64,000 nt of DNA from Gordionus sp. m RMFG-2023. Its lineage: Eukaryota; Nematomorpha; Gordioida; Chordodea; Parachordodidae. This document shows positions 1,358-60,167 of this stretch, one piece after another. Position numbers and translations under genes: made by a program. The stretch's first letter is position 1. Each line of letters begins with the position of its first letter. The stretch is taken from NCBI RefSeq assembly GCF_954871325.1, contig NC_088778.1, forward strand, positions 33,492,730-33,556,729, given 5' to 3'. The notes under the pieces were generated by a model that was given only the letters and a program-made list of their open reading frames with translations, was not told the origin of the DNA and made no database searches.

Positions 1358-3724
1358 ATACTAGATATCTAATACTGGGTAAGGTGAGAGAACATTTATA
1401 TTAATTTGATCAAGCATATTTATTTAAAAAGATATTTACGATATAAATCGTTTTAAGGAGACGATTATATGCAAATGAAAAATATATATTTTATTTTTAA
1501 ATTTTTTTTACTCTAAAGCTGTAATGACAAATAGATTAGGTTAGAATATTTTTTTTACTAAAATATAAGTTCCCTTTAATTTTCCATAATAAAAATCTAA
1601 TTTTCTTTTTCAAAGTAATTGTTAATCCCGCTCACATATTCATTTGTATTATACTATTAGGCAGTATTTAAAAATTTTCACAAATGTAATAAAAACTAAT
1701 ACAATAAGTGTTTCTTTTAAAAAAAATTTAGAACATATAGACACCCTTGCAATATCTATAGGTTTTCTTATACATTATTGACATAAATATTTAAATTTTT
1801 ATTTATAATAAACAGTCATTTCATTATTAATGAATTATGAAATACAATAAACTTTATAGTTTTAATTTTCATTGAAAATCCAAAATTTTCTCTTTTAATA
1901 GGTAACAACAAGTTCCGTAAACCAGGTTTCTAATATTAACTATACGATGGGATAATCAATTTAATAACATTTTAGCCTTCTGATACATCGAAATTATTTC
2001 CTATACATTAAATGCCAACTAGCTTATTTAAAAAATTAATTATTTTAGCAATTAAGTAGTGAGTTGTATTGCGGTAATTAATTCGTAGAGGTTTAATAAA
2101 TTAAGGTAAATGCATAGCTTTGGAAGTTATTGTTTTTTTTAAAAATTTGTTCTTGAGCAAGTATTAGATACTATCGTAAAAAAATTTATATATATGGCCT
2201 TTTTGTTAAGCTTTATTTGAGAATGCGCTAAGAAAAAATTTCCTTCTGTTCAGAGCTCTTTAGTAAAGAGGATAGATTAAAATTCTATTCCCCTCAATTT
2301 TTTTTATATATAAGTTTACTTAAATTTTTTTTAATTTTATGTTTATATAATATTTGAACATTTATCAGCAGCGATAACAGATATGAATCTGAGAATTATT
2401 TATATATGAGAATAATATTTGGGTTTGATAGAATTTATTATTAGGTCGCTAGACGTATAATTATTTAAACATTTTATAAAATTATAATCAATTTGTTCGT
2501 CAAAGCCTATAATCTTATAGATAAATATTATGGTTTAGCAGCAACCCTATTCATCTATTAAAATTGATATTAAATTTGCAAAAGATTTATTGTACAATGC
2601 ATGCATAAAATTATATCCTATTTTTTTATTTTTCAGAAATATTTACGAATTGTTATACCATATCTAATTCATTTTTGCGATTTTGGAAAATTTTAGTTTA
2701 AAATTTTTATATATTTTTTTATTCTTTCTTTAAATATAAATTATAAATATAATAGAAGAATTATTTTGTACAAATTAAATCATAATGAATAGAATAAATA
2801 TTTGGCTAATGTCAAATTCACGCTTGGATTTAGGTTTTCTTGTTTTCTTATAGTTACCAGTGTTTATTTTATATAGGTCCTGGTAAGAACACATTTTCAC
2901 ATATCTGATTTCTTGAGATTTTTTTAAATTTATTTGCCTGATTATCAATAATTTTTTTTAAAATATCTGAATAAAATATAGAACATAATCTATATTTATT
3001 ACCTATATGCCTAATTTAATATTTTCTTTAAATCATGATTCAGCTCGTATTCTAATTTGTAGGCACAAAATTTATTCGAGTAAGCCATATTTAATTTATT
3101 GCTAGTTTTAATTAAATATAAATAATTAAATCTAGCTTACATGTGTGAAAAAGAAGGTATATTTATTCAATAAAAAGAAGAAATTTTTCTATATAATCGA
3201 TATAATATTTGTTTATAGATGGAGATATTTTATATACTACCAGAGGTTTATTAATAATTACAAAGTTTGGAAATAATATCTAATGTATTTCATTAATTGT
3301 AACTTTTTTTTTGATAATGTGGTAAAATTGATATTTTGGCCTTAATAAACAATATGGAAGATGCTAAAAAGGATTATTAGCAAGACTTTGATATTTAAAC
3401 AAACTCTTATAACAATTTACATTTCCTATAGAATATTTAAATAAAATGGATCATATCATCGAAAGTATCTATTATTTATTTTTTTTGACTTTATAAGAAT
3501 TTAATTTAATATTTATTCATCATTTCTATAAAATATTTTAAGCTTCAAATTTGTTGATCGGAATAAGTAAAAATTTTTTAAAAAAAATAAATTCTTATGT
3601 AACAATTATAAATTAAAAACAACAGAGCGCAATGAAAATCTTACTCTTGAATTAGGTATGAAATTTTTAGGATATTTTTTGTAAAAACGCGATCTTAATG
3701 TAGATCAAGACGACAATCCCAATA
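1358..3724 (+). CDS. micro-exon gene, paralog A (partial, some exons broken)
   Basis: Function unknown. Firm exons, each between AG and GT, all phase 1-1 and multiples of three: 3044-3079 (RILICRHKIYS), 3136-3156 (YMCEKE), 3219-3245 (GDILYTTR), 3432-3464 (YLNKMDHIIE), 3543-3566 (SNLLIGI), 3626-3655 (RNENLTLEL), 3704-3724 (QDDNPN). Each has a counterpart of similar peptide in gene B. Exon 1902-1925 (NNKFRKP) matches B and C. Less certain upstream exons of the same type are 1358-1378 (TRYLIL), 1519-1539 (VMTNRL) and 1732-1761 (HIDTLAISI). A possible 6-nt exon is 2874-2879. The counterpart of B's 36-nt exon (from 1976) has an in-frame TGA and no donor, and that of the next exon (about 2050-2074) has lost frame. 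Copy A may therefore be partly pseudogenised, or may skip those exons. Start codon, signal peptide and stop were not found. Confidence 0.6.
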
Positions 3725-4923
3725 GTAAATTTTATAATGTTATAAATTGAGATTGAAAAAATATATATTATATGCACTTTTATTATTATATTATAAAACA
3801 GGAGCCCCCAAAAAAAATTTTTCTTCTTGTTCAGTTTTTCTAACATATTGATATTTTCCAATTCAGTTCCAAATTTTAGAGCCCTCTGAAATATCCTAAA
3901 TAATATTATACTATTTTATTCCTATTTTATTAATACAGAATTTTTATACATATTAGTCTTCATATTTTAAAATCAAGCTAATATATTAAGATTATTATCT
4001 ATAGAAATATAAAATTTATGTAATTTAAACTTATTTATTCATTTTATAAAAATTTGGAAACTATGTTTTAATACATTTCCAGTCCAATCAAAATTTACAA
4101 CTTTCAATATGGTGAATAATAAAAGAAAATAATCAAGGATATCATATTCCAATTTAACATATAGGTATTCAGCGAATCGGAACATTTAATAAACCTTGTT
4201 TCAGCATGTAAAAATTATCTACCATGAATAATTTTGCTATGAACATTCGAAAAACTCTTTAATTTATATAAATTTTATAATATCGATTTTTCATATGAAT
4301 TGGAAATTGTCTGAAATTGATAGGAGAGAATTTCTATATATGACACTGTATACGATTCCAACAAATTCAGGTGTTTAAGATTTTTTAAAACCATATAACC
4401 CTAAATTTTTTAAACACCTAAGATATATATTTCTAGTAGCTATCTAAGAAATTTCAGGGACATTCTTCGTTTTATTAAATTGGTAAAACTTGGAATGATC
4501 TACAAGGCGATTTTTTTTTAATTTTGAGAGGCATTATTTTGTGGGAAACGAAATGCAACATATCTAGAGTTATTGATCTGCGATTTCAGACAATTTTATT
4601 GATACATTTAATTTAAACCATATATATACATTGAAAAAATGTTTCAAAAGTTCTAAAAAAAATGTTTTTACAGAAATATGTTCAAAAGTTTTTAATGCAA
4701 ATTTTAATTTTTAGCAATTTTTACGTTTTTACTAACAATTTTTTTTTTATATAAAAGAATCTATATTAAACATATAGATTTAAAAAAATATGTAAAATGT
4801 TTTAAGATATTCTAATTAAAGAATTATTATTTCCATAAAACGATATCACACTTTTTCAAATAGTTTCTAATGTGAATAATCATAATGCTATAAATCTATT
4901 TTAATATTTAGTCTTTCTAACAG

Positions 4924-4941
4924 GTTTCAACATTAAACCAG
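4924..4941 (+). other. possible stray micro-exon between genes A and B
   Basis: An 18-nt phase 1-1 segment between CTAACAG and GTAGAT reads FNIKP. It resembles the NNKFRKP exon of gene A at 1902-1925, and its context (AAACCAGGT, then AACATTTTAG shortly after) also matches that region. The following gap to the next AG is only 23 nt, too short for a safe intron. It may be a fragment left by unequal crossing-over. Confidence 0.25.
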
Positions 4942-5004
4942 GTAGATTACCTTTAACATTTTAGACATACTTAGTGACGTGGCCTTTATAAATCAAGATT
5001 ATAA

Positions 5005-5320
5005 AAGTTTGGGAAATAGAAGAAAATGGGAAGAAAGGAAAAGGATAAGAAGGAAAAGAAAGGAAAGCAAAATTAAGCAAAGTAAAGGGAAGAAGAGCAA
5101 AATGAAGGAAAGCAAAAGAAATAGAAACAAAATGATGTGCAAAAGAAAGGGAAGGAAAAAAAAAAGAAAAGAAAAGAAAGGTAAAGGAAGAAAGGTAAAG
5201 GAAGAGAGGTAAAAGGAGGGAAAGGAAAGTAGGGAAGAGAAAGTAGGGAGAAAAGGAGATAAGTGGGGAAGGATGGTTGAAGAGGAAGGGAAGAGAAAGA
5301 TGGCAGGTGGAAGGAGTAAA
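5005..5320. repeat. polypurine low-complexity tract
   Basis: About 300 bp are almost pure A/G on the + strand, built from degenerate GAAAGGAA-type words. The ORFs on both strands here are by-products (Lys/Arg/Glu-rich or Leu/Phe/Ser-rich) and are not called. Confidence 0.85.
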
Positions 5321-5439
5321 TAATTTATTTGCTACATTGCGTGAAAGGCAATACGAATTTTTTTTTAAATGAATGTTAGTCAATACTTTTATATAGACGA
5401 AGGTGTTTCTATAGTATTGTTAAAAAGACTCATTTAAAA

Positions 5440-5640
5440 CAATTTAAAAAATAACAACGCGATTAGGATTTTAGCCTAAATAATTTGATGCAAACCTCGA
5501 GAGGTGTCAAGTAGGTCCTAACCTTTCTGCAATCTATGAACAAAATCTTCAGGCTTACACAATATTATTTTGGTTAAAATCTGAATATAGGGTCATACGC
5601 AAAAATAGGCCTAAATCGGACTTAACAAAGCTAGTGTTCT
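5440..5640. mobile_element. degenerate hAT-like MITE, family B
   Basis: The core contains AACCTCGAGAGG, a run resembling ACCTTTCTGC, then AACAAAATCTTCAGGCTTA and CAATATTATTTTGG. These match, in order, the centre of family B (compare 25955-26153). The termini are too diverged to define a target duplication. Confidence 0.4.
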
Positions 5641-6692
5641 CTTCGGGTTCGTAACTCTGGTAAAAAATATAGATGTGAAGAGAAAATTGAAGAAAAGTAA
5701 GGATGTAATAATTTGTTATTCTTTTATTTTATTATAATTATAAAAAAAAGATGTGGTAGAAAAACAATTAGGTATATATATTTTTCTTAAATTTTATATG
5801 GCTTAATTTCTAAACTTTTTATATAAAACGAGAATTGAAAAAGAATTTTATTAGTATATATATATGCTATATATAAAATATTATGTGTTCATTAATATCT
5901 AGATCATGTGAATGGGACTTTAATAATATCTATAGGTATCGATGTTAAGAACAATGTATTTATTAAAATTTTATCCTCCACTGTTCAATATCTCCTCCTT
6001 ATTCTACCAATTATTACTGTTATACATCGTCTCACATATTTTGGCAACGACCTACCGTTATTATGCTTAATAGACAATACAATTTAAATCCATTTTTAAA
6101 ATAATTTTTGGATTCAATAATTTTAAACAATATTTTTTATATTTGTTTCAAGTAATTATTAAGATTATTTTTTTCATATATGTTTGAAAATTAATAGGAA
6201 TGCCATTTATCTGTGGGGGGATATATTTTTTGGAAAAAAATTATAAATTTTACCAATACTTTCTTTGAATGTTGTTACTTGGCATAGGAAAAAAAAATAA
6301 AAGCTTAAATAAAAATATCATACAATCAATTAGGGAAATTAATAAAAATATTAAAATAATTTGAGGATTATATGATATTTTCCACTGTAAGGCCGAAAGG
6401 GCTTAAATTAATAATCGTAAGCTATTTTAGTGGCGATCCCTGAGATTTAAATAATAATTTAAAAATGAATAAAATTTAATTAAAAAAATGTTTTTTAAAT
6501 TATGCAAAAAATAAAAGTTTCTTAAAAATAATAAATGAATATATGAGAATTTTCAGAAATAAAGTATATATTTTAAGTAGTAATTTTCAATATTTTCTAA
6601 TGTGAAAATTGCGATATATTATTTATAACTAAAAGATCAAATTCCAGCTCACTACCAATACCATCGTAAATAATAGAATTTTTTTTTTATAG

Positions 6693-8701
6693 GAAATAAA
6701 ATTTTTTACGAAACAGGTATATTATAACGTAAAACATTATAATATAATAAATATCCTTTATTCTTAATATTTTAGTATTTGGGTTAATCAATATTATAAC
6801 TAATATAGAAAGTAAACAAAATATATAAAACTACCAAATTAATATGATCTTATATAATAAATTCTTTTGATAGCTAATTCACTTCTCTTTCCTAAACCAT
6901 ATGGTAATTTTTCGGATATCAATAATAAAATATTTGCACTACTTTGCCAATAATCAAAAACCGATCATCATGAAAAAATAGAAATGAACGACTTCATTTT
7001 CTAATAAAAAATATAAAAAATCCCTCTATAAATCTCTTTATTACAAGTGGATTTTGAGATAAACTTTTGAGAATCGAATCTTACTCATTTAAAATATCTA
7101 TGAAATCTTTTACGTTTTTATTACAATTATTTTAAATATAACTTCCGTCATATTTGTTAAGGCGTACCTTGTGGAGTGTGTTAGGGCCTGATCGGCTGTA
7201 ATATTATTGAATATAAGTGGATCTATGCTGTGATAAAATAATTATCGGTGTGGGCCTATCTTTTTATAGCTATCCGCGATCAGTATTGTTCGATTTTTAC
7301 CTGGGAGTTTATATAGGAACCGCGGTTCATCGGCTAGAAATTTTCGTTGCCATATTTTCGAATTTTTCTTACTTAATTTTTTTTTTTTTATAATTTATGA
7401 ACACTAAATTTAATCATTAATTCTAATTTTTTTTTTTGAAATAAAGTTTATTTTTCAAATACCAATATGATACTTTAAATTAAATTTATAAAATAGTAGT
7501 TATATAAAAATTATTTTATTTTAATTGAAAGAACATAGTCTGTAAAACTTTGGCAATGAAGCATTACTTTTCTTAAAAAACAAAGAAAAAATATACTATT
7601 ATAATCGGTGCCCGTGAAACAAAATGTTATCTCTAAATTTATAGATTTTATCCATGATGATTCATGGATCTATGCTTTAGCAATATTAATTGTTTCTTTT
7701 TAATTGTAAAATTTTTCCATGAAATGTTTTTTAGATATATTCCTATTTTTTTTAAAATATATCTTATTAGTTTTAGGGTATATTATTATTTTATTAAATT
7801 TTTAATGAAGAAATATTGAAAATAGAAAAATTCCAATCAGCAAATATGTATTTTTGCCAAAAAAATATAATAATTTTAAACTAATATTTTTAAAAATATT
7901 GATAATTTAAACTAACGTTATCTTCTTTTATTTTTTTATATAAAATATTAAAAAAACTTATTTAGTTAGAAATGTGATGAGGTGTAGCAAACATTTTTAT
8001 CCGAGTAAGACACTAATTAATATTAGTTAAAAATTATTAATGAAAAAAATTTATTTCAGATGACTTCATGTACACATGCGAAAAAGATAGTATTATTATC
8101 AAAGAAACTTCTAAAATTTTTTGAATTATAAAATTTATTTATAGATGGCCAAGTTATAAACACCACTTCAGGTTTATCTAATTACTGTTCACTTTATTTT
8201 TAAAAGTTTTACCAGTAAGAATGCTAATGTATTATATTTATGTTATTATTTTAATATAGAACATATAAAAAAGGAAATAAAAAGTTAGTTTCTTATAAAA
8301 ATTGTAATTATAAAAATATTTATATTTCTGATAGATTACTTAAAAAATGTGGACTATTACATCAGAGGTATATATATATATAATATATTATTCAGACCAA
8401 ATTTTTACCTATAATATTCAATAATTGTTTAATAAATAACTTTAGCTTCGAATTTGCTGTTCGTAATAAGTAAATTAAGCAAATATTATATTTTTTATCT
8501 AATGATTTTAATTTAGGATTGGAAAATAAGAACCTCACTATTGATATAGGTATTAAAAAAAATTATGTGTATGTATTTATGTGACATATTTATAATTTAA
8601 TTTACTAGAACAAAATAACGCACCTGTTGGTAAAAATATTGTTTTCTAACAAATTATATTTTTAAGATACAATAATAATTATTGTCATTTTGTATTTTTA
8701 A
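6693..8701 (+). CDS. micro-exon gene, paralog B (best preserved copy)
   Basis: Function unknown; no family recognised. Exons, all AG/GT bounded and phase 1-1: 6693-6716 (NKIFYET), 6776-6811 (FGLINIITNIE), 6874-6903 (NSLLFPKPY), 7966-8004 (RNVMRCSKHFYP), 8060-8089 (DFMYTCEKD), 8145-8171 (GQVINTTS), 8335-8367 (YLKNVDYYIR), 8446-8469 (SNLLFVI), 8517-8549 (LENKNLTIDI), 8609-8629 (QNNAPV). A possible terminal exon at 8667-8701 encodes 11 residues, mostly hydrophobic, then TAA. Lengths are 24, 36, 30, 39, 30, 27, 33, 24, 33 and 21 nt. Most introns are 37-78 nt. The 1062-nt intron 6904-7965 probably hides more exons. Conserved Cys occur in the 7966 and 8060 exons. Exons pair with gene A (8) and C (3). 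First exon and signal peptide not located. Confidence 0.65.
7140..7350. other. GC-richer island inside the long intron of gene B
   Basis: This stretch has clearly higher GC than its surroundings (for example GGGCCTGATCGGCTG and ACCGCGGTTCATCGGC) and lies in the longest intron of gene B. It looks like an inserted element fragment. I could not find paired ends or a second copy. Confidence 0.3.
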
Positions 8702-9428
8702 TGTCCCTGTAAAAGATTTATTGGAAAATTTATTTCGCCTATTTTTATATCAATTTTCATAACTACAATAAGAGGTCTTTATTAAAAATAAAAATATTGA
8801 AAGATAATATGTAAAATATAATTATATAGGAAAGTAAATCACAAATATAGTCTTCTTAAAAGAAAGAAATTAAGGCATAATAAATAGCAGAGAAAATTTA
8901 TTTTAAGCTCAGAGCTATGTATAAACTCTCGAGGCTAATAGTACTCGTATCGATTTATCATGGACAGTAAATTTAGTAAGGAAATATGTTGAAAATGACT
9001 ATAATTTGTTGAATTCGCTCTTTTTTAAAGTTGTAATAAATTACATAAAAGTTTGTATTTAATTGCCAATATAAATGGATAAGGGAATGGGATGAGACAG
9101 TCATCTTTATTGCAGGGTTGGTATATCTCTTCGATTTTATTTATATTTTAGCTTAAATAGCTCATTTTATAGCCTTCGCGTGAATTATTAATTCTACACT
9201 CTTTATATAACATGGGCCGATATATGACAATTATAATTATATCTTGCCTATAATGGTATATTAGAAAAAAAACCAATTTGGTATTAAAATGTCAATTAAA
9301 TTATAATTCCAAAATAAAATGTTGATAATAAATTAGACTTTGATATCTTTGATCTTCAATTTTAAATAAATCTAAATGGATTAATTAAATGTAATGAAAG
9401 ACATATTTGTTTTAAAAACATTATTTTG
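8702..9428. other. spacer with no recognised feature
   Basis: AT-rich sequence downstream of gene B. Isolated AG/GT pairs occur here, but none pairs with an exon in A or C, so none is called. Confidence 0.4.
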
Positions 9429-9558
9429 CGGAGTTGCTAAAAGATACTTTTTAAATGGATCTAGATACAGATACATCGTTCTAAAATAATATCTAGACAC
9501 AGATAATCAAAAATCTATCTAGATACAGATACCAAATTTTACCTAGATCCTAACTCTA
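9429..9558. mobile_element. hAT-like MITE, family C, with perfect 8-bp target duplication
   Basis: The element begins CGGAGTTGCTAAAAGATAC, contains several CTAGATACAGATA words and ends TAGATCCTAACTCTA. It is flanked by TTATTTTG at 9421-9428 and 9559-9566. The near-identical but longer copy at 58816-58977 defines the ends. It is non-autonomous, with no ORF. An 8-bp duplication is the hAT hallmark. Confidence 0.85.
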
Positions 9559-9879
9559 TTATTTTGTGTTTGATTTTGATCTACTGATTTTAAAAAAGAA
9601 ATTTTGGACCTAAATATTTTAATAAAAATAAGAAAATGAGAGGTTTAATATGAATCTGTAATGAAGAATTTAGACTATTTATGAATCTTACGGTTCTGAA
9701 GAATTTTATTTTGAAGATACAACATTCCCACAATATATCTAAAAAACATTTTTTTTTTAAAAAAAAAATTAATATCGCTACTTTACCGAGCTTAATTTTT
9801 TTTTTTTTAAAATTAAAATTTAAATAAATGAAATATACATTTATTTTTTTGAATATTTTTAAAGGGGTTCAGGGGTGGC

Positions 9880-10065
9880 TAGTGTTGTTAATAGGCTAAC
9901 TCAATATTTTAGATAGAAAAATACTGCCTAAACATTGAGATTTCTCTAATATATGACTTTCCATATATGAGCCAAATCTTTAGGATCGAGTCATATTTTT
10001 GTGGATAAAATATTGAGGTCGCCGTTCTTAAAATTCGGCTCAAAACGAGCCGATTAACAACACTA
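9880..10065. mobile_element. hAT-like MITE, family B
   Basis: It runs from TAGTGTTGTTAATAGGC to CGATTAACAACACTA. The terminal inverted repeats carry the family marks: TAGTGTTGTTAA, CTAACTCAATATTTTAG near the left end, and CGGCTCAAAACGAGCCG near the right end. About 186 bp, no ORF. The flanks do not show a clear 8-bp duplication. Confidence 0.75.
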
Positions 10066-10407
10066 GTAAGCATTTTCCTAAAGTGTTTCTTATGGAAGTT
10101 TTTCTTCTTCTTATGGATTTCCCTAGAATTTTTTCCGGAATTGTCCTTTTTAAATATTTTTTTTTTCTTCCTAGAATATTAAATTTCAGATTAAATTTTT
10201 TCGTTTATTATTTATATAAAGGGTATCATAATAAATATAAAATCTATTTTTTTAGAAATTCCAACATCAAATAATCGTGTGATTGATGTTTGTTCTGATT
10301 ATACCACTCATTCTTTTCAACATAAATAATCTACATATCTTTTATATTCACTGTTTTCTTGTGTTAAGTTTCTATCCGTTTTTTATTTGAACTCACACTT
10401 AACAATA

Positions 10408-10606
10408 CTCTGGTGGGGTATATGGAACCCCAGGCATGCTAGAAATGATATTACATAAAAACGGTTAAATGTTATGATCTGAATTCTTCAGTATCTTCAT
10501 CAAATATATCTTAGAATCTATATTCCAAATTTCATATATTTCAGCTGGATAGCTTTTAAGATATAGCATTTTTTGACTGATTGGGGTTTGTGAGACCCCA
10601 CCAGAG
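10408..10606. mobile_element. MITE with CTCTGGTGGGGT inverted ends
   Basis: Left end CTCTGGTGGGGTATATGGAA pairs with right end GAGACCCCACCAGAG. GGAACCCCA on the left also mirrors TGGGGTTTG on the right. The dinucleotide TA flanks both sides (10406-10407, 10607-10608), which would fit a Tc1/mariner-like insertion, but TA is common here. No ORF. A diverged end-like fragment is at about 10930-10965 (GGGGTCTATTAAACCTCACC). Confidence 0.65.
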
Positions 10607-10965
10607 TAAATTTGTATGTTTATATTTTTTTTTTATATTTGAATGTTTTAGTGTAATTTTTTTTATATTGAAGAATAAAGATCCATATTATGAATTATCA
10701 TGATTATATGATGGATAAGTTATTTTTTAATTTTATACTTGAAATTAAAAAAAGTAAGCTTTTTTAAAAAAAATTTTGGCACAAATTATAATTATCCTCG
10801 TCATCTTTAATCTAGGCTTAAGAAATAGAAATATTTAAATATTTTATCAAGCTTAAGGTTAGATCTATCTTATATTCAAAAATCAAATGAAAATAATGAA
10901 TATTACTGGAGATATATACATTTGAAATTGGGGTCTATTAAACCTCACCCAAGTAATAACGTCAT

Positions 10966-11340
10966 TTTTTTCACCGGAGTATTGAAGGGTTGATCTTGAC
11001 TCTTTAGCTGAAATTCAAAAGAGTCGGATTGGATTACATAACGATTTTATATACATCTCAACCTCCTAAATAAGACAACAATTACAAAAATGTCATTTTA
11101 CCAACATCTATCATTCATACTTTTTTTTATCAAAGTTTGAAACCGGAAATAGAATCTGGAACTCTCTGAATAAGGACAAATCTAAGAACCGGAACGAGAA
11201 CCTAGAACTTCCTTTTTAAAAGTTAGATGAAATAGAACAGAAAAAAAAACATAAAACTAATTTTTAAAATTTAAATTACTCCAGTATTTATAAAAGTGCG
11301 AGTATTTTCTATATCGTTCAAAATGTGGTTATTCTTAAAG
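10966..11340. other. spacer with no recognised gene
   Basis: AT-rich non-coding sequence. The only notable part is the poly-G run that follows at 11343-11353 (11 G). Confidence 0.4.
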
Positions 11341-11601
11341 GAGGGGGGGGGGGTCTATTGCTTAAATATTTTTGATTTACTTCAAACAGATTTTGGGACC
11401 GAAAACCAGATTTCTTAAATTTAGAAACCGGATATCCAAAAATTCATTATTAGGGACCGGAAATGGCAATATTTTCGGTCCATATTCCAAACTTCGAATT
11501 ATATATACCATTAATTTTGTAGTAAAGGATTTGAAAACAATACAATCTGATTCGGGTAGAATTTAATTTCAACATATTTTGAACCAATATATTCATATGA
11601 A

Positions 11602-11917
11602 ATAAGGTGCGAAGTATAAGAATACTAGGAAGTTTAAAGGTAGAGCCCTAAGACTGAGATAATGGTAAACAGACTTAGGTTCCATGGGCATACAATGAGA
11701 ATGCCTATGAACTATATAGGAAATAAAGTTGAGAGTTTGGAAGTGATGGGTAAACGTAAAAGAGGAAGGCCAAAACTTCAATGGGGGCCATAAAGTTAGA
11801 GCCAGCATGAAGAAGTATAAATTAGATTAATGAGATAGTTTGAATAATATAAAGTGGAGAGAGATATTGAAGGAGCTTACCACCAGAAAAGGTGAAAGCT
11901 AAAAGAGAAAAAAAAAA
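11602..11917 (+). mobile_element. 3' end of a non-LTR retrotransposon (LINE)
   Basis: The + strand is a paralogue of the C-terminal end of the LINE at 19633-20668. It starts at GATAAGGTGCGAAG-like sequence and reads through the RLRFHGHTMRMPM, YIGNKVESLEVMG and KRKRGRPKLQWGP blocks typical of the region after the RT domain. It continues through a 3' UTR with TACCACCAGAAAAGGTGAAA and ends in poly-A. The copy is 5'-truncated and frameshifted. The GRPKLQW block is followed by a stop. Confidence 0.85.
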
Positions 11918-12299
11918 TATTCATTTGACGGAATGAATTAATGTAAAAAAAAATATTATTTCTAATTTATAAAATTTTGTTACGATGAAGCTTTTCTGAT
12001 AAAACATCTTGGTAAGATCATTTTCTTTAAATAATATTTTACTAATTGCAATTAAAATCATTTCCTAACAAATTAAATTATTGTCATTTGGGAGGAGCCT
12101 TAATTGATCACATAGAATATTTTGATATTTATTTTAACTGCAGAAGGTATGAATGGTACCCTAATAGTATCCATAGGTAAAATCATATATAATAGATGTT
12201 TTTTTTTAAATTTAAATCAGCTCTATATTACACTCAATAAATCAACTATTGAGAGGGGAGGTGGTTAAAGTGTTGAGATGAGGTACTTGTAACGTAAGA

Positions 12300-12692
<393 letters not shown>

Positions 12693-12693
12693 A

Positions 12694-12897
12694 GAGTGTT
12701 GTCAAACACCTCAAATTTGAGCCAATATTTAAAAACGGCTTACTCATAGCTTTATCCAGTAAAATCATATGTACCTGAAGACTATGATCATAGATGGCAA
12801 AAAGATTTAGACATCTATTAGCTAACTCTCGATTATGCAATATTTTTCTAGCTGTTGAGTCAGTCATTTTTGAAAATCTGCTCGTTATTATCAACTC
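12694..12897. mobile_element. hAT-like MITE, family B, next to a microsatellite
   Basis: It begins GAGTGTTGTCAAAC and has TTTGAGCC, AAAAACGGCTTACTCATA and CAATATTTTTCTAGCTG in family B order, ending near ATCAACTC. The (GAAA)n/(AAAT)n array lies exactly at its left end. Confidence 0.6.
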
Positions 12898-13246
12898 AAA
12901 TTTTTATTTTACACTATGATATTTTAAACATTTATTAAGTTAACTAAATAAAATAGACATATGATTTTATAAGAGTTTTTGCAAAGACAGCAAAAATCAC
13001 TTAAAAATTTTAAAAAAAAACTATCATATAGCTTATCTCTATCTATTTTTTTTTCGCCAAATGTTAATTTTTTAAAGTTTTTAATACATTGTTCATGGAT
13101 TTGATTATTTCTTTATATTTGATTTTATATAATTCATAATGCTAGTCTACAGTTGATAATGGAGTCTGACAACCCTGCTTAAAATATCAATCATATATCA
13201 GGGCAAAATTTTAATATATATATTTTTATAATTTTCCTCTTTTTAG

Positions 13247-14143
13247 GATATAAAACTTTTCGTGAACAAGGTAAATATTATAATTTATATAATAATGGCC
13301 CAATAATTTTTTCTCAATACGTATTTAGTTTCGGGGAGTGTTCAAATTACAAGCAATATAATAGGTATATATTTTAAAAAAATAAGTTTTCTGAAAATTA
13401 ATTATTTTAAAAGCTAAACCTTATTCACTGCAATATAATGGTAAAAATACAATATATGGTAAATTTTATGACAAATCAACAAAAAATAACACGGTTTTCA
13501 AACCGAGCCTATCAAATTTTTCCAAAAATTAAGAAGATAATAAAAAATCTAGTCTCCAACTCCAAACCGGTTGAGATTTGGGGCTGTAAATGTGGAAAAA
13601 ATGAGGAATTATTGGCAATATGCTATTCCACTTCAGATATAATTAAGCTAGAATTGTCATGTATATTACTTTATATTTTATTCTATTTCTGGATTTTAAC
13701 GTTAGAAACATTTTTACAATATTTAGTAATTTTGAAGGTCCATCTATTATTTTAGAAAATTTTTTAAAACAGTATATTTGAATATAGAATATGTAAAGAT
13801 AATTTAAAAATTGTAAATATAAAATTGAATGTACAATTGGAAATTTTTAAACACAATTATGCTTGTTTTTTAGGTACATTTTCATTATTGAATTTAAGCT
13901 CTTTTTAGAGCCTTCCATACTATTAATATATATATTATTATTTAGTAATTTATTATATTTAATATATTTAATAAATATTTTTATACAGTTATTATTTTAA
14001 TTGTTCTTAAATTTGCTTACAATTTAAAACTTTCAATTTTACCCTTATAAAATTTGACATTTACACAATTATCTCAACCTCTGATTGGAGTTGGAAGCTA
14101 AAATATTAGTTATTTCTTTGTTTTATAGCATGTACAACCTTTG
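13247..14143 (+). CDS. micro-exon gene, paralog C (partial)
   Basis: Function unknown. Three firm exons match gene B in order, phase and spacing: 13247-13270 (YKTFREQ; 24 nt as in A and B), 13329-13364 (SGSVQITSNII; 36 nt as in B), 13414-13440 (KPYSLQYN; 27 nt against 30). The introns are 58 and 49 nt, against 59 and 62 in B. Downstream, 14129-14143 (CTTF, acceptor TTTTATAG, donor GTAAAA) may correspond to the CEK exon. A segment at 13874-13908, after the strong acceptor TTGTTTTTTAG, reads 11 residues to TAG. It has the same length as gene B's proposed terminal exon. Counterparts of B's YL, SNLL and LTIDI exons were not found, so C may be truncated. Acceptors are T-rich and donors are GTAAAT/GTATAT/GTAAAA. 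Confidence 0.5.
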
Positions 14144-19632: not shown

Positions 19633-20668
19633 CTATCTCTCTCCACTTTATGTTATTCACGGTATCTCTTTTATCTAATTTATACTTCTTTATATTGGCT
19701 CTAACTTTATGGCCCCATTAAAATTTTGGCCTTCCTCTTTTACACCATCACTTTCAAACTCTCAACCTTATTTTTTCCTATATAGTCCATAGGCCTTATT
19801 ATTGTGTGCCCATACCAAATAAGTCTGTTCACCATTATCTTATTTTTAATGGAAACTACCTTTAAACTTCCTAGTATTCTTGTACTTCGCACCTTATCGT
19901 TTTTTGTTACCCCAGCAATCATCCTCGGCATTCTCATTTCCATAATTTGTAGTTCTCTCGTCTGATTCTTTGGTTGGCCAAGTTTCCGAACTATATAGAA
20001 TAGTTGGTTGTACTATGGAACTGTAAATCTTTCTCTTTAGTTTGTGTGGGATTCCTTGTCAAAGAGCACTTCAGATAAAGATCTCCACTTTAACCACCTT
20101 TGATTAATTTTACTATTTATCTCTTTCTCTAATGTGTTGTTTGTATAATGAAGCCCAAATTTTGCACCTTTCAATAGCCGATATCTGCCATTCATTTATT
20201 TCAATGCTCTCTGTTTCATCTCCTCCTATTACCATATACTCCGTCTTTTCTTTATTTAATTTTAATCCGTGCTTTTCTAGGATATTTATCCAACTCAATC
20301 TTTCTTTCATTTCATCCTTGGATTCGGCAAGTATCACAATATTCAAATATCATATTCTACGGGACTGTTTGTGGTATGGACTGTGCTAATACATCTATTA
20401 CTGTTATGAAGAGAAGTGAGCTGAGAGGCGACCCTTGATGAACTCCCTCGGCTATCGTGAAGTCTGTTGAAATATCAGTTATGACCATTGTTGTATGGCC
20501 CATACACATATCTTGTATAATACTTATATATTTTTCGGGAACCTTTTTGTGGCGTAGCGTCCATTATATAAGTTTTCTTGGATCTTCCAGGAATAAAGCC
20601 AAACTGAGTTTTTCCTATTTCGATTATATCTTTTTTCTATTATTTTTTCTTAGAGTTTAAGACAGTGT
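19633..20668 (-). pseudogene. non-LTR retrotransposon reverse transcriptase remnant
   Basis: The reverse strand encodes, from 20668 downward, EKIIEKR, an RT block like QFGFIPGRS, VPEKYISIIQDM, EGVHQGSPLSSLLF, then a degraded catalytic block where the usual F/Y-ADD reads FEY before a frameshift. Next come VILAESKDEMKERL and EKHGLKLNKEKTEYM, the post-RT block MEMRMPRMIAGVTK, and NRLIWYGHTIIRPMDYIG. This order is typical of LINE ORF2-type proteins carrying a GVT..D..R and RW.GH.-R.P tail (RTE/CR1/Jockey-like; clade not decided). There are stops, frameshifts and a gap between PGRS and VPEKY. The 3' end is cut off at 19633. It is non-functional. Confidence 0.88.
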
Positions 20669-26235: not shown

Positions 26236-29200
26236 TTATATATAAAAGTAATAATTTGGTTTATGGTAACTCTTTAGAGTTGGTTGAATATCGTCTTTAT
26301 GGAGATCTCGATTTTGGAACATTTGGGGATTGATGAGATCGTGCAGAAAGGGTAAACGAGGCTCCAAAGGGGTCGAGCCTGTCATCCTAGACATCACATT
26401 TTTAACCGAACATTTATTGACATTTAAATTGGCGCCGGTAAAGCCATTCGAAGCGATTTGGCATTTTATCGCCTCCATTTTATGGAACGAAGACGCGCCA
26501 GTGTAATATTTAAGTAGCAGATCGATACAATTCATAGTCAAATTATTGCGCGAATTATTCCTTCTTAGTTTGAATTTCATTTTATCGCGGGTATTAATAC
26601 TGTACGCCTTCGATATGTTGTTGGACAACATTTTTGGATAGCTATCATCTCGCGTTTTATGAAGGTGGACGTGATTTGCCTTTCTGTCAACAAATAACAT
26701 TTCTTTGCAACATACTAGTCTGGCTGGAATATTTTGATACCCAAAAGGTTTTTTACCATCACCATCGCTATCTTCATCATCTTCATCATCTCGATAAGAG
26801 CGTTTAAATTGATAGGATTCGCATTTCACGTTATCATTTTGATATTCTGCTGCTTGTTCCATAGAATTGCCATCCTCAATCTTAAAGCTAACACTTCTAT
26901 CGACAACTTTGAGAAAGGTATGATGCCTCTTCGACATTATACTGCCGTTTTTCAAATAACCCTCCTTACATCGTTTTTCTGCCTCATCTATATTGACTAT
27001 GAGGGACAGGTTGTCATTGTTAGGAAAGCCGTGTTCCGATTTCGTATCCACCCCAATATTTTCTTTCCACACTCCATCATCATTTCTTCTATATAAAACG
27101 GTTGCTTCCTTTTCATTTTTATTTGGGCCATAAGTGTTGTTCGATAATTCGAGGTTGGACGATATTCTTAGGTATATTTTGTCATTCGGTATGGAATTGG
27201 TATTGTCCTTCATGTTGATACTTGGTTCGAAGGTGCTTATTATGCTCCCTTTCATTATGCCAGAACTATTAGGCGGTATATTACCATTCATGACTAAAAA
27301 CTTTTTCATTATCTTCCTTTGGACTTGTCTGATGGCTTTTTGAAAATTTGTTCCCGATGCACTATATAAAAAAACATTTATAGCATAACTAATGTGCCGG
27401 AGGAAGTACGGTAAAGTTATCCAAATAGGACTTATGTGAAATATCATATCATTTTCATGGTTATTGCTACGATTTCGTTTCAAGGAATACATGAATAAAG
27501 CGAATCGCGAGGCGTGAAAGGGGGTGTGGAAAAGCAAAAATACCGTTGAAACGATGAGCAACATCTTTGTGACAGCCATTTGCGATTTGGAGTTTTTCCC
27601 CCTAGAATCTATTATCCCTGTTGTACTGACTGCTTGGGACACCTTTTTGAACTTTTGCTTAATTTTTATCTTATTATAACATTTGGATTTAGGGTCATGT
27701 TTCTGGTCATCGATAGACGAGTCAGCATTCGTGGTGTTTGTAGTGTTAGATTTGTTCGAGTTCCTAGGGGAATTAATGTAAAATTTGTTCATAATCTTGT
27801 AGAAGCTGATGGACTTGCCAACATGACAGGAGGAATCAATCGATTGTTGTTCGCCAAAATTCAAAATATCCTTTACCGGGTTAGGAGTTACAATATCATT
27901 CTCACCCAACGTTAGAACATCAATCTTTGTATCGTGAATATTATACGTATCCCTTTCATTTTCATTTTTTGCCAAGCTATCATTATCAAGATTAGCATGA
28001 TTGAGAACTAGATTATTATTAGGATGGCTATTTAAGTTGAGAGTGTTGTCGTATATACAAGTTAGCAACGAAAATATAGAACTTTCTCTTTTGCACAACT
28101 TTATCAAGGTATTATGTTGAATGGACTTAGTAACATATGGCTCATCTTCGTTTACGCTACAGTTGAGATTTGAATGGATCGATGTATCGCCATTTTGGAG
28201 GAAATCGCTGCTGCGCGGAATGAGGGGCTTTTGTGAGGAAGACGAGGGAATTCTCTTGGGCTTACGATTGTCAACGTGTTTGGTCCTATTAAAATTTTCG
28301 TTTTTTTTCTTATTGCTTCCTTTTCTCAGAATTTTTAAAGGATTCGGGTAGGCCCTTATACTGGCGTTCTTTTGATTGATACGTTTCCACAGCCCGCGAT
28401 AATTGATCAATTTGCGGGCTATCATGATATTGCAGAAAACTATGATAAACAGAGGTGCTATTAGCATGACAGTTGTCTCTATATTCTTGAGAACGTAGGA
28501 TGTGTATTCGTATTCAGGATCTATGTCGCACCCGTAGTCATTGAAGGATTTTGGAATAGATTTGGGTGTCGTTGATGGTATCTCTCCCGTTCTAAGGTCG
28601 TTGATTTTTAGAAGACTCCTTCTCAGACTCTCTTGCTTGGTGATATTTAATGACAAATTATGAAAGATTTTTTCAAAAAAGTTGAATATGCTAGATGAAT
28701 CAATATTCGGTTTGGTAGAGACGCTTAGGGGAAGAATTGTGCTGTTGTCGGATATATTATTGCGCTCTTTATTCGGATTAATTATAGCGTTAGTAGAATA
28801 ATTCTGGTGATTGATAAACATCGTAACGAGCCCGTTGTATACCAATTTTTGGATCTTGAAGGTGTAAGAAAACCACAACGCCGTGATACCCGTCAAAGTG
28901 AAAATGACTTTGTTAGCTCTCGACATCGAGACCGGTTTCATTTCGCTTAAACGACTCCCTTTCTTCCAAGGGCGGCATATTACTAGAAATCTTTCTACCG
29001 TAAACATAACTATGATCCACACGGAGAGAGATGCGAATACCTCGTGGAGATAACTCAAGATCTGGCACATGCCGTCGCTGTTGAAAAGTGCCCACGCCAC
29101 GCCATTTTTGAAATAAGGTGAGGACGAGATTATTATAATCATGGTGGTGCAGAGAAAGCCAAAATCGCTTAAAGAGAGGGCGGCCAGATAACACCAGCAA

Positions 29201-29901
29201 GGTACCTTGAGCAAAAAAGAATTGAAAAATACTATGACTGTCAAAACGTTACCCAGTATTCCCACACAAGTGATAACGGGTAGGACATAAAGGATGAGGA
29301 ACATGCTAAGAACATGTACATTTGTCACGTGGGTTGACATCTTCAATTTTATGTTGGCGGGAGAAGCATCTAGGGATGATGGGGTATTGTCACCATGATA
29401 ATTATTCTTGGTGTCGTTCTTTATCAATATGAGGGTGTTGAGATGAATCTCGACCAGAGGCGGACCAGACACCCCTTCAAATGGCGCGATTATTTTATGT
29501 TCTTTATAGTCATTGCCCATTATGATACGCGGACCGCCCCTGAAGTTTGAAGGCCATTTAACCCCTTTTTTCTTTTTTCTTTCCCGGCTTTGGCTCGGTT
29601 CGTCATACATTTCTTGGTAATAATCATCTGTGGGTAATCTATTGCTGTAATAGAATAGGTCTCTGTGGCTAAAGGCGTCGGCTATAAGTTTATCACCGGT
29701 TATAACCTTATGACTTATATCATCCATGGCCACTTTTTTCTTATCGCGGTATCCCATTATCCCTTCAGGTCCCGACTTGGCGAATGATCCTTCCAAACGT
29801 TCCTTATTATCGTTATTATCATCATTGATATTCTGGTCAAAGTTGTAAAGGTGTAACCAATTTTTAGCGTTCAGCAGTAAAAGAAACGTAATATTGGTCA
29901 T
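26236..29901 (-). CDS. class A (rhodopsin-type) GPCR, peptide-receptor-like, single exon
   Basis: A 1221-residue plasma-membrane receptor predicted to couple to G proteins; ligand unknown. TM1 is about 198-226 (GNVLTVIVFF), TM2 235-258 (LAALSLSDF), TM3 282-308 with MCQI Cys and ERF in place of DRY, then VICRPW. TM4 is 332-350, and ECL2 is about 120 residues with the partner Cys in YGCDID. TM5 is 473-497, TM6 776-804 (FLLFHTPFH in place of FxxCWxP) and TM7 824-847 (INVFLYSASG in place of NPxxY), then a basic helix-8 region. ICL3 spans about 280 residues and the tail about 370, both Asn/Ser/Lys-rich. Such motifs fit invertebrate neuropeptide/FMRFamide-type receptors. The reading frame is unbroken and GC is higher than around it. 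The long N-terminus (190 residues) before TM1 lacks a clear signal peptide. A shorter start at Met188 is possible. Confidence 0.92.
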   Translation of the reverse strand: MTNITFLLLLNAKNWLHLYNFDQNINDDNNDNKERLEGSFAKSGPEGIMGYRDKKKVAMDDISHKVITGDKLIADAFSHRDLFYYSNRLPTDDYYQEMYDEPSQSRERKKKKGVKWPSNFRGGPRIIMGNDYKEHKIIAPFEGVSGPPLVEIHLNTLILIKNDTKNNYHGDNTPSSLDASPANIKLKMSTHVTNVHVLSMFLILYVLPVITCVGILGNVLTVIVFFNSFLLKVPCWCYLAALSLSDFGFLCTTMIIIISSSPYFKNGVAWALFNSDGMCQILSYLHEVFASLSVWIIVMFTVERFLVICRPWKKGSRLSEMKPVSMSRANKVIFTLTGITALWFSYTFKIQKLVYNGLVTMFINHQNYSTNAIINPNKERNNISDNSTILPLSVSTKPNIDSSSIFNFFEKIFHNLSLNITKQESLRRSLLKINDLRTGEIPSTTPKSIPKSFNDYGCDIDPEYEYTSYVLKNIETTVMLIAPLFIIVFCNIMIARKLINYRGLWKRINQKNASIRAYPNPLKILRKGSNKKKNENFNRTKHVDNRKPKRIPSSSSQKPLIPRSSDFLQNGDTSIHSNLNCSVNEDEPYVTKSIQHNTLIKLCKRESSIFSLLTCIYDNTLNLNSHPNNNLVLNHANLDNDSLAKNENERDTYNIHDTKIDVLTLGENDIVTPNPVKDILNFGEQQSIDSSCHVGKSISFYKIMNKFYINSPRNSNKSNTTNTTNADSSIDDQKHDPKSKCYNKIKIKQKFKKVSQAVSTTGIIDSRGKNSKSQMAVTKMLLIVSTVFLLFHTPFHASRFALFMYSLKRNRSNNHENDMIFHISPIWITLPYFLRHISYAINVFLYSASGTNFQKAIRQVQRKIMKKFLVMNGNIPPNSSGIMKGSIISTFEPSINMKDNTNSIPNDKIYLRISSNLELSNNTYGPNKNEKEATVLYRRNDDGVWKENIGVDTKSEHGFPNNDNLSLIVNIDEAEKRCKEGYLKNGSIMSKRHHTFLKVVDRSVSFKIEDGNSMEQAAEYQNDNVKCESYQFKRSYRDDEDDEDSDGDGKKPFGYQNIPARLVCCKEMLFVDRKANHVHLHKTRDDSYPKMLSNNISKAYSINTRDKMKFKLRRNNSRNNLTMNCIDLLLKYYTGASSFHKMEAIKCQIASNGFTGANLNVNKCSVKNVMSRMTGSTPLEPRLPFLHDLINPQMFQNRDLHKDDIQPTLKSYHKPNYYFYI

Positions 29902-32700: not shown

Positions 32701-32851
32701 AATAAGATTTTATAGTTCAAAATTTTAAGGAACAGTTTCTTAAGAAATACGCATGCACGCCCTCGTGGAATGATTTACCGAATAAACTTACCATATTTCA
32801 TAATTAATAAGGGTGGTCATTAAAAATTTTTAAAAAATGACGTTATTTAAG

Positions 32852-33270
<419 letters not shown>

Positions 33271-33480
33271 TAGTAAAAAAAGAGAAGCTTTTAAGTATAT
33301 ATTAAATAATTCTTTAAAGAATAGAATTAAAAAGATATATAGCTTCAAAATGGAACCACTATACATAGGAATAGGGGAAAAGGATTTGTCCCTTTGAAAA
33401 AATTGTGAGAAGCGTATATATTATGTCAATTTATTATTTTACTGTGAAAATAAGATTAAGATATTCAGTGATCACCTACA

Positions 33481-51921: not shown

Positions 51922-52311
51922 AAGAGAAGAGAAGAGAAGAGAAGAGAAGAGAAGAGGAAGAAGAAGAGAAGAGAAGAAGAGAAGAGAAGAGAAGAGAAGA
52001 AGAAGAGAAGAGAAGAGAAGAGAAGAGAAGAGAAGAAGAAGAAGAGAAGAGAAGAGAAGAGAGAAGAGAAGAGAAGAGAAGAGAAGAGAAGAGAAGAAGA
52101 GAAGAGAAGAGAAGAGAAGAAGAAGAGAAGAGAAGAGAAGAGAAGAAGAAGAGAAGAAGAAGAGAAGAAGAGAAGAGAAGAGAAGAAGAAGAGAAGAAGA
52201 AGAAGAAGAAGAAGAAGAAGAAGAAGAAGAAGAGAAGAGAAGAAGAAGAGAAGAGAAGAAGAAGAAGAAGAGAAGAGAAGAGAAGAAGAAGAGAAGAGAA
52301 GAGAAGAGAGA
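51922..52311. repeat. (GAAGA)n/(GAA)n microsatellite
   Basis: About 390 bp of GAGAAGA and AGAAGA units on the + strand. The Arg/Glu-rich ORF is an artefact. Confidence 0.97.
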
Positions 52312-55611: not shown

Positions 55612-56784
55612 ATTAGGACGCAAAATTTGTATCAATAAGTTTACATTTCATTTTGGTTCACGTTCAAAATAGCTAAAAAGAAAATGGGCTAAGAAATTTG
55701 TGAATCTCGTTTATATCTTCCTAGAAAATTTAATATTGAAAATAATATTAATAGATGCGAAAAAAGTAAAATTTCTGAATTGAGATTTTTTTTAAAAAAA
55801 TTTGCTAAAATAGTGGAAATATCACTTAAGTTTCCAATGGGAATTTTTAAGATATTCCTCCATTTTTAGCCATTTTTATATTCTAGAACTTATTTTAGAT
55901 ACAAGTGTTTACTTCCCTAACATCATTCCCTTTAAAAAAATTTCTAGGAACATATAAGGGAAATTCCAAATGTTTTAGCGAATTTTGTTTTTTCCTAGAT
56001 TTAGAATCTATCCTTCTGATTGGTTCCCATTTGATAGCATGTATAACATAGTATAAGGTTCAATAAGCGATTTGTTAATTATAAAGACTAAATTATAACC
56101 ATAATTGGAAAATAAATTATTATATTATCTAATATTATAAAAAAAGTGTGTATTCTCTTAACGTAATTAGAAAGATCTTCCATGGCCGGGGTTTTAACCG
56201 GCCCGCGTTTAGGTTACCCCTCCCATCCTCCCCTCAAGAGTTTTTATTAAATTATTCTATCATTGCAATGTAAAATATAAAATTTATATGGTAGGATGGA
56301 GTTACTATTTTTTTAATCAAGATACGTATCTTGTATCTCTACCAATTTCATAACTGAATCATTTTATATTTTTGTCTTTCAGGGGAGATGGGCGGCATCA
56401 TTAGTTTTCTAAAGGGCTCTAGTTAAATTTTTAAAAATTTTAGATGAACGAAACAAAACTTATATCCTAACTGAAATTGTCATTCAGATTATTTTATATC
56501 TAAATTCCCCCCCCTCTCTCTTTCTTTCAAATAATCTTAGAATACATTTTGCCAAGTTAATTATCAATTTTCTAAGTTTTGTTTGGACAATTTATATAAT
56601 ATAAGATCAAAATGAAAATATTACAAAACACAATAAAAATTTTAACTATGTAATTAGAGATATATTTCATAATTGAAGTTTCCAGAAAGGAACCATGATT
56701 ATGTCTAGAAATTTCAATTTTTATGGCGCATATATAAAAATTCTCTGGACTTATAAAAAGCCGTATTTTATTAGAGGGCCATTA
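55612..56784. other. spacer with no recognised gene
   Basis: AT-rich sequence. C runs are present at 56505-56515. No coding support. Confidence 0.4.
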
Positions 56785-57086
56785 GAGAAGAGAAGAGAAG
56801 AAGAAGAGAAGAGAAGAGAAGAGAAGAGAAGAGAAGAGAAGAGAAGAGAAGAGAAGAGAAGAGAAGAGAAGAGAAGAGAAGAGAGAGAAGAGAAGAGAAG
56901 AGAAGAGAAGAGAAGAGAAGAGAAGAGAAGAGAAGAGAAGAGAAGAGAAGAGAGAGAAGAGAAGAGAAGAGAAGAGAAGAGAGAAGAGAAGAGAAGAGAA
57001 GAGAAGAGAAGAGAAGAGAGAGAAGAGAAGAGAAGAGAAGAGAAGAGAAGAGAAGAGAAGAGAAGAGAAGAGAAGAGAAGAGAAGA
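56785..57086. repeat. (GAAGA)n microsatellite
   Basis: About 300 bp of AGAAG/GAGAAGA units, with GAGAGAA interruptions roughly every 50-60 bp, indicating higher-order duplication. ORFs on both strands are artefacts. Confidence 0.97.
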
Positions 57087-60014: not shown

Positions 60015-60167
60015 TTAGAAAAAGGACCTGCTATAAATAATTTATAGTGCGCACAAATTGAACGTTTGCGTTTGCAGTACGTTTTTTAACGTAACTCATC
60101 TGTGTTAAAATTGAAAGCAGTACGTTTTTTCTTTATTTTAAAATTGAAAACATTTTTATTAAACAAT

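Follow-up and report, generated by a model that had tools for sequence, protein, structure and literature searches.

The 64,000-nucleotide (nt) stretch analyzed here, hereafter the window, comes from the horsehair worm Gordionus sp. m RMFG-2023 (RefSeq assembly GCF_954871325.1, contig NC_088778.1, positions 33,492,730 to 33,556,729) and contains on its plus strand an array of real coding micro-exons that is hidden from searches for open reading frames (ORFs) and shares the design of micro-exon genes (MEGs), namely small symmetrical exons. The original prediction had read this array as three separate paralogous genes, A, B, and C, lying between 1902 and 14143, and had likened its architecture to the MEGs of schistosomes and other flatworms. 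While the exon array and its MEG-like architecture were confirmed, its limits had to be moved, with the series running from 1519 to a proposed terminal exon at 13637–13756; furthermore, the genome is that of Gordionus, a member of the Nematomorpha, and A, B, and C are, judging from comparisons across the genome, tandem modules of a single larger gene. The window probably holds the 3′ end of this multi-module micro-exon gene, comprising most of two modules (A and B) and a closing half-module (C). The family to which it belongs has dozens of tiny exons per gene and is nearly absent from the annotation.

All exons described here lie on the plus strand and are named by their place in the module (m01 to m15); scores refer to profiles built from copies elsewhere in the genome (outside-profile scores). 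Module A opens with m02 (1519–1539; 21 nt, VMTNRL), which sits between AG and GT in phase 2 and has a copy in a duplicate array at C4:32.32–32.33 Mb that reads VMIKRL with GA at the aligned donor. It is followed by m03 (1732–1761; 30 nt, HIDTLAISI), the partner of B m03 with a copy of 33 nt in the duplicate array, and by m04 (1902–1925; 24 nt, NNKFRKP; score 10.7). The next exons are m08 (3044–3079; 36 nt, RILICRHKIYS; score 25.2), carrying the first Cys, m09 (3136–3156; 21 nt, YMCEKE), which carries the second Cys, is the partner of B m09, and is kept in the duplicate array, and m10 (3219–3245; 27 nt, GDILYTTR; score 19.9), the partner of B m10. At the place of m11 there is a decayed remnant (3358–3379, limits approximate) that has lost both splice sites and frame, with intact copies present at the loci L022, L024, and L025; it represents the decay of a single exon within an otherwise open exon series. 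Module A closes with m12 (3432–3464; 33 nt, YLNKMDHIIE; score 28.1), m13 (3543–3566; 24 nt, SNLLIGI; score 22.3), which belongs to a family detected genome-wide by pattern, m14 (3626–3655; 30 nt, RNENLTLEL), the partner of B m14 with a copy of 33 nt in the duplicate array, and m15 (3704–3724; 21 nt, QDDNPN; score 15.2).

Module B consists of m02 (5751–5771; 21 nt, VVEKQL), identical in the duplicate array and preceded by a weak polypyrimidine tract, m03 (5903–5935; 33 nt, HVNGTLIISI; score 30.9), likewise part of a genome-wide family, m04 (6693–6716; 24 nt, NKIFYET; score 17.8), m05 (6776–6811; 36 nt, FGLINIITNIE), the partner of C m05 and kept in the duplicate array, m08 (7966–8004; 39 nt, RNVMRCSKHFYP; score 18.9), m09 (8060–8089; 30 nt, DFMYTCEKD), m10 (8145–8171; 27 nt, GQVINTTS; score 17.8), m11 (8260–8283; 24 nt, HIKKEIK), m12 (8335–8367; 33 nt, YLKNVDYYIR; score 23.9), m13 (8446–8469; 24 nt, SNLLFVI; score 13.9), m14 (8517–8549; 33 nt, LENKNLTIDI; score 23.0), and m15 (8609–8629; 21 nt, QNNAPV; score 11.0). 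The four A/B pairs that had been singled out earlier (m12 to m15) are all real as exons between AG and GT, and the lengths given for the introns between paired exons (56/55, 62/55, 186/163, 78/78, 59/47, and 48/59 nt) are exact. Half-module C contains m02 (11991–12011; 21 nt, FLIKHL; VLIKHL in the duplicate array), m03 (12144–12176; 33 nt, GMNGTLIVSI; score 27.9), m04 (13247–13270; 24 nt, YKTFREQ; score 22.1), m05 (13329–13364; 36 nt, SGSVQITSNII; score 12.6), and m06 (13414–13440; 27 nt, KPYSLQYN; score 22.0). After a gap of 196 nt (203 nt in the duplicate array), the proposed terminal exon (13637–13756) begins at an AG acceptor and encodes a hydrophobic C-terminal tail and the stop; an open hydrophobic tail of the same kind follows in the duplicate array. 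Joined together, the exons of A to C and the terminal exon give 290 codons with the sole stop at the end.

Profiles made from copies elsewhere in the genome, with the window and its duplicate array left out, gave 19 matches in the window, 18 of which are exons of A, B, and C, in order and on the plus strand. The same profiles gave no match on the reverse complement of the window and a mean of 0.43 matches (maximum 2) on 30 Markov-2 random windows. The first outside copies came from one DNA pattern for m13 alone, and since copies were chosen with seeds that included window peptides, the test falls short of being fully blind. In the accepted set, internal exons begin at codon position 2, with lengths divisible by 3, properties that the exon finder assumed, with chance tested separately; the phase-2 rule is supported separately by the codon-position test and by the junction residues of an NCBI protein, both described below.

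Several candidates were rejected. The 15-nt exon at 14129–14143, with which the array had been thought to end, does not fit into the series of exons, and its donor GT is lost in the duplicate array, where the counterpart contains no stop when read in phase 2. Candidates for m01 in A, B, and C (e.g., 4165–4197 and 11523–11555) were not accepted; for m01 of half-module C, a weak candidate was all that was seen, and in module B no convincing m01, m06, or m07 exon was found. A lone m02-like match at 60915–60935 as well as single weak reverse-strand matches in the window array and the duplicate array were taken as chance.

Wherever its exons were recognized, at 28 further loci beyond the window, the family follows one exon order: m01 TVxxGxLFHL, m02 TMVKQL, m03 NVNGTLIISI, m04 NKTFQES, m05 SGFIKITS.., m06 KPYLLQHN, m07 VDMKDL, m08 RNVMICR..., m09 NFTCEKE, m10 GDIINTTR, m11 NVxxVIN, m12 YLNNTDHYIQ, m13 SNLLIGI, m14 LGNxNLTLNL, and m15 QDxKPN. 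Where both m08 and m09 were recognized, they usually contain one Cys each, with a Tyr between them in some copies only. The first pattern for m13 matched 39 places in the genome, compared to 0 for the reversed control, and the genome-wide patterns, whose counts are lower bounds, gave 101 matches for m13 (0 in the control), 90 for m03 (0), and 70 for m12 (1). Among the listed matches (100 for m13 and 70 for m12), m12 and m13 lie less than 200 nt apart in 31 pairs, all 31 of which have the expected order and strand at 85–117 nt from each other. The union of m12 and m13 marks at least 139 module copies in the genome, the intactness of which was not checked copy by copy. At 32 m13 loci (L025 and L044 being the same copy), m12 was recognized in 23, m14 in 23, and m15 in 26. 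The 260 listed matches of m13, m03, and m12 form 40 clusters (gap 60 kb) across contigs C1–C5 and C12, and neighboring matches 0.2–30 kb apart share their strand in 159 of 172 cases. The region C4:2330649–2916821 (approximately 590 kb) holds 40 family exon matches, all on the minus strand, and may correspond to a single very large multi-module gene or to several of them.

The extent of a complete gene became apparent on contig C3, where a 33-kb stretch carries tandem modules on one strand and gave 0 matches on the other (27 kb tested). Our model of C3 gene 1 has 72 exons and 688 codons with a single terminal stop and spans about five modules: exon 1 (MNFFLSTFVLSAIIT) and three short exons are followed by a half-module from m08 to m15, further modules, the exons m03 to m06, and a hydrophobic tail exon. 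Its 70 internal exons measure 18–45 nt and, following the rule of the finder, are all multiples of 3 in one phase; the model was assembled by human choice among candidates, with exons stop-free by selection and some modules lacking some exons. C3 gene 2, located 40 kb from gene 1, starts in the same way, and the ORF and donor of the hydrophobic, signal-peptide-like first exon are conserved between the two. The arrays also end alike: in the window, in its duplicate array, and in C3 gene 1, m06 leads to a hydrophobic tail that is open. Both gene starts and all three array ends conform to this plan. Since genes begin with the half-module m08–m15 and end with m06, module borders do not coincide with gene borders.

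Annotated NCBI proteins join several modules as well. The NCBI protein P0123 (unnamed protein product) corresponds to C3 gene 1, starts with the signal exon exactly as predicted, and comprises 24 exons of the 72 in their proper order, running through modules 0–3. Its residues at exon junctions are as predicted in 22 of 23 cases, and the exception fits an acceptor 6 nt further upstream. The in-frame exon skipping in this model may be an annotation error. A stretch at approximately residues 236–307 is unrelated to the family, carries a precomputed PF14802 assignment, and is probably a wrong fusion with a neighboring gene. A second protein, P0124 (LOC135928788, uncharacterized), is, as judged by eye, a C4 copy that chains at least 2 modules. 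Both proteins are fragments of the Gordionus family, and neither NCBI name recognizes a micro-exon family. The exon and gene architecture described here is very likely correct.

The product of C3 gene 1 is hydrophobic at its N-terminus and C-terminus and contains 23 N-x-S/T sequons and 11 Cys. No Pfam family exceeded its cut-off, a profile search against PDB gave a single match at E 0.51 and none better, and, at the sensitivity of the search, a protein search for relatives returned P0123 and P0124 only, both from Gordionus. An AlphaFold2 prediction of P0124 together with P0123 reached a mean predicted local distance difference test score (pLDDT) of 28 and is unusable as a structure. From these features, a mechanism can be proposed in which the signal-peptide-like first exon would send the product into the secretory pathway, the hydrophobic tail (transmembrane or of the glycosylphosphatidylinositol type) would carry it to the surface or hold it there, and the protein would probably be N-glycosylated as well as disulfide-bonded, usually with two Cys per module. 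Every accepted exon is a frame-neutral cassette, which could be spliced in or left out while the frame is preserved; owing to this symmetry, the remaining exons may keep their frame when one is lost. With modules being duplicated and lost as units, the outcome would be a repertoire of surface or secreted proteins that varies fast, most plausibly at the boundary between the worm and its arthropod host.

Considering these steps separately, a secreted or surface location is likely, and the family may be summarized as glycoproteins, secreted or at the surface, that evolve fast and may be varied through exon skipping, a function suggested by these features. MEGs and bicycle proteins provide an analogy that makes a role in diversity at the host interface plausible, and we put it forward tentatively, at slightly under even confidence. 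It has a serious rival in a family of structural or reproductive surface proteins of the cuticle, epidermis, or gametes without any role in the host, since the signal exon, the hydrophobic tail, the many sequons, and the fast evolution fit such proteins equally well and nothing decisive counted against them; we regard this as a real possibility, albeit one we would not presently favor.

The comparison of recent duplicates gave a divided picture of constraint. Exons and introns have diverged to the same extent between the window and the duplicate array, at 0.106 and 0.101 for module A and at 0.075 and 0.083 for module B; the intron value for half-module C (0.407) is an artifact of poor global alignment and was not used. 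The pooled ratio of nonsynonymous to synonymous substitution rates (dN/dS), calculated from ungapped exons only, with A m03, A m14, and one m08 dropped owing to in-frame indels, was 0.78 between the window and the duplicate array and 0.80 for C3 gene 1/gene 2 together with the L017/L019 and L018/L020 pairs. The original prediction had set conserved exons, frames, and splice sites against diverged introns and had regarded a lack of purifying selection relative to the introns as evidence against real genes. For the recent duplicates, such a lack was found in part at the level of residues. However, splice sites and frames are kept: 53 of 54 splice dinucleotides are retained between the window and the duplicate array and 60 of 61 between C3 gene 1 and gene 2, whereas a neutral simulation at 8.8% substitution predicted the loss of 9.0 of the 54 (P of at most 1 lost = 0.0005). 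Moreover, none of the duplicate copies of the exons contains a stop, compared to 3.4 expected under the same simulation (P = 0.03), and indels in duplicate exons are multiples of 3. In older copies, variation is highest at third codon positions (0.379 versus 0.283 and 0.240), and of the eight exon classes in this codon-position test, m14 alone is slightly higher at first positions (943 versus 919).

A number of observations weigh against a functional multi-module gene of this kind. No start was detected for the window gene itself, whose earliest identified exon lies 19.3 kb upstream of the window, and the large gaps between modules, above all the 11.8 kb from Y to A (Y being an upstream module described below), could hide a gene boundary. 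P0123 omits 48 of the 72 exons, and its final approximately 70 residues are unrelated to the family. The loci L027 and L032–L034 have no recognized m12, m14, or m15 and few recognizable neighboring exons. Hydrophobicity was the measure by which the signal exon and the tail were assessed, and the host-interface role draws on analogy. In module A, no convincing m01, m05, m06, or m07 was found, and with m11 decayed in addition, part of the array may be degenerating. Finally, residue constraint is weak in recent duplicates, as seen from the equal divergence of exons and introns and the dN/dS values, and the neutral test took 27 exons that are intact in the window, with decayed ones such as A m11 left out.

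The latter points would fit a mostly degenerating pseudogene array of an old, decaying family, of which the window copy is no longer functional; the equal divergence of exons and introns in recent duplicates, the decayed and missing exons of module A, and a dN/dS of about 0.8 speak in its favor. It is nevertheless an unlikely explanation, because the duplicates keep their splice sites and frames beyond the neutral expectation, the third-position bias persists among the copies, and the exons of A to C alone join into 250 codons without any junction creating a stop, even if each exon was picked stop-free.

That each module is instead a gene with its own promoter and start, i.e., a tandem array of paralogues as originally proposed, is more doubtful still. 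The distances from Y to A, from A to B (about 2 kb), and from B to C (3.4 kb) would leave room for such genes, and P0124, as mapped by eye, starts inside a module. However, two further modules, X and Y, were found upstream of the window, and X m15 is separated from Y m01 by only 53 nt, bounded by GT and AG, an intron-sized gap that leaves no room for a gene border. Similarly, two modules of C3 gene 1 are separated by 225 nt, again from GT to AG and without an ATG. Both gaps are too short for a 3′ end, a promoter, and a signal exon; furthermore, genes start at a half-module and end at m06, as outlined above, and P0123 continues across module borders. We therefore retain the reading of A, B, and C as modules of one gene.

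Besides the micro-exon array, the window contains an intronless gene on the minus strand (26239–29901) for a 1221-aa rhodopsin-type G-protein-coupled receptor (PF00001, E 1e-11) that contains very long stretches rich in Asn; when its residues 175–620 were used as a protein query, the receptor itself was the sole match. AAGA and AAGAG microsatellite arrays of 300–435 nt are located at 12296–12695, 32849–33283, 51922–52309, and 56784–57086. On reading, the segments 11600–11900 (plus strand) and 19640–19990 (minus strand) resemble retrotransposon tails, and a short ORF at 60163–60465 (plus strand) gave the impression of a transposase, with no Pfam match obtained for it at E 0.001. Elsewhere in the genome, COX1-like stretches gave 48 matches in nuclear contigs (e.g., L010 at C5:18715870, L011, L012, and L013), many of those other than L010 with TAA or TAG stops. 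L010, the best of them, contains a full-length COX1 when read with genetic code 5, matching Gordionus alpestris at 100% over 468 aa, Gordius sp. at 90%, and G. wolterstorffii at 85%. The species is probably the one whose genome was published under the name Gordionus montsenyensis.

Horsehair worms change the behavior of their hosts, and to our knowledge, few candidate molecules for these effects are known. The family described here provides a concrete candidate set, with its 139 marked module copies being barely visible to standard annotation. We know of micro-exon families of secreted proteins otherwise only from flatworm parasites and plant-manipulating hemipterans such as gall-forming aphids. 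Among the literature titles listed, none concerned micro-exon genes in Nematomorpha; two hairworm genome papers, which were outside that search, may mention them.

The two established systems are described as follows. Small symmetrical exons together with a signal peptide define the MEGs, whose products are predicted to be secreted or membrane-anchored and which seem to be restricted to platyhelminths (PMC4350168, PMC10526429), with 189 residues as the longest protein of one set according to a figure legend (PMC10526429). Bicycle genes of aphids, phylloxerids, and coccids have many micro-exons, nearly all internal ones starting at codon position 2, are built from uni- to tetracycle repeats, and average about 17 exons (PMC9168663); their proteins adopt saposin-like folds (PMC13041983). 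With the MEGs of these descriptions, the Gordionus genes share a coding region of mostly tiny exons that are mostly multiples of three, multigene organization, fast evolution, resistance to automatic annotation, and a signal peptide, here judged by hydrophobicity. A secreted or membrane-anchored product, as predicted for MEGs, would suit the hydrophobic terminal exons of C3 gene 1, the window, and the duplicate array. High dN/dS is a further feature of MEGs, with which the values of 0.78 and 0.80 in Gordionus duplicates may be compared. MEGs also vary by alternative splicing; in Gordionus, the NCBI model P0123 leaves out exons in frame, which may reflect an annotation error. In contrast to MEGs, the family occurs in Nematomorpha, C3 gene 1 has 72 exons, repeated modules, and 688 aa, as opposed to the 189 residues of that set, and the protein search yielded no flatworm protein, MEG sequences not having been compared directly. 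With bicycle genes as described, the family has in common many micro-exons, exon starts at codon position 2, a signal peptide, rapid evolution, and repeated units, whereas bicycle genes are hemipteran and have about 17 exons rather than 72, and the Gordionus genes have a hydrophobic tail exon. C-Y-C motifs mark bicycle genes, and a Tyr between the two Cys occurs in some Gordionus modules only. An identity as an aphid or phylloxera bicycle gene, suggested by the exon phase, was considered and dropped, since COX1 and the NCBI family proteins point to Gordionus.

Common descent with bicycle genes or MEGs, by deep inheritance or horizontal transfer, is very improbable: the bicycle-like exon phase and repeated units would suit it, and the definition of MEGs fits equally, but the phyla differ, the protein, Pfam, and PDB searches pointed to no such relative, and the families were set apart without direct comparison to bicycle or MEG sequences. 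In design, the Gordionus family resembles MEGs and bicycle genes, whereas by taxon and sequence it appears to be a member of neither. We consider it possible, at less than even odds, that Nematomorpha evolved a third micro-exon diversity system independently, beside flatworm MEGs and hemipteran bicycle genes, in which multi-module genes with approximately 70 frame-neutral cassette exons could yield very many variant surface glycoproteins through exon choice, which the juvenile worm would deploy against its arthropod host or upon it. The question of why parasites evolve micro-exon genes becomes testable through cross-phylum comparison. That a third lineage of parasites shows this design, with the exon phase of bicycle genes and no detected sequence relationship, suggests that symmetrical micro-exons have repeatedly served as a solution where secreted proteins change fast.

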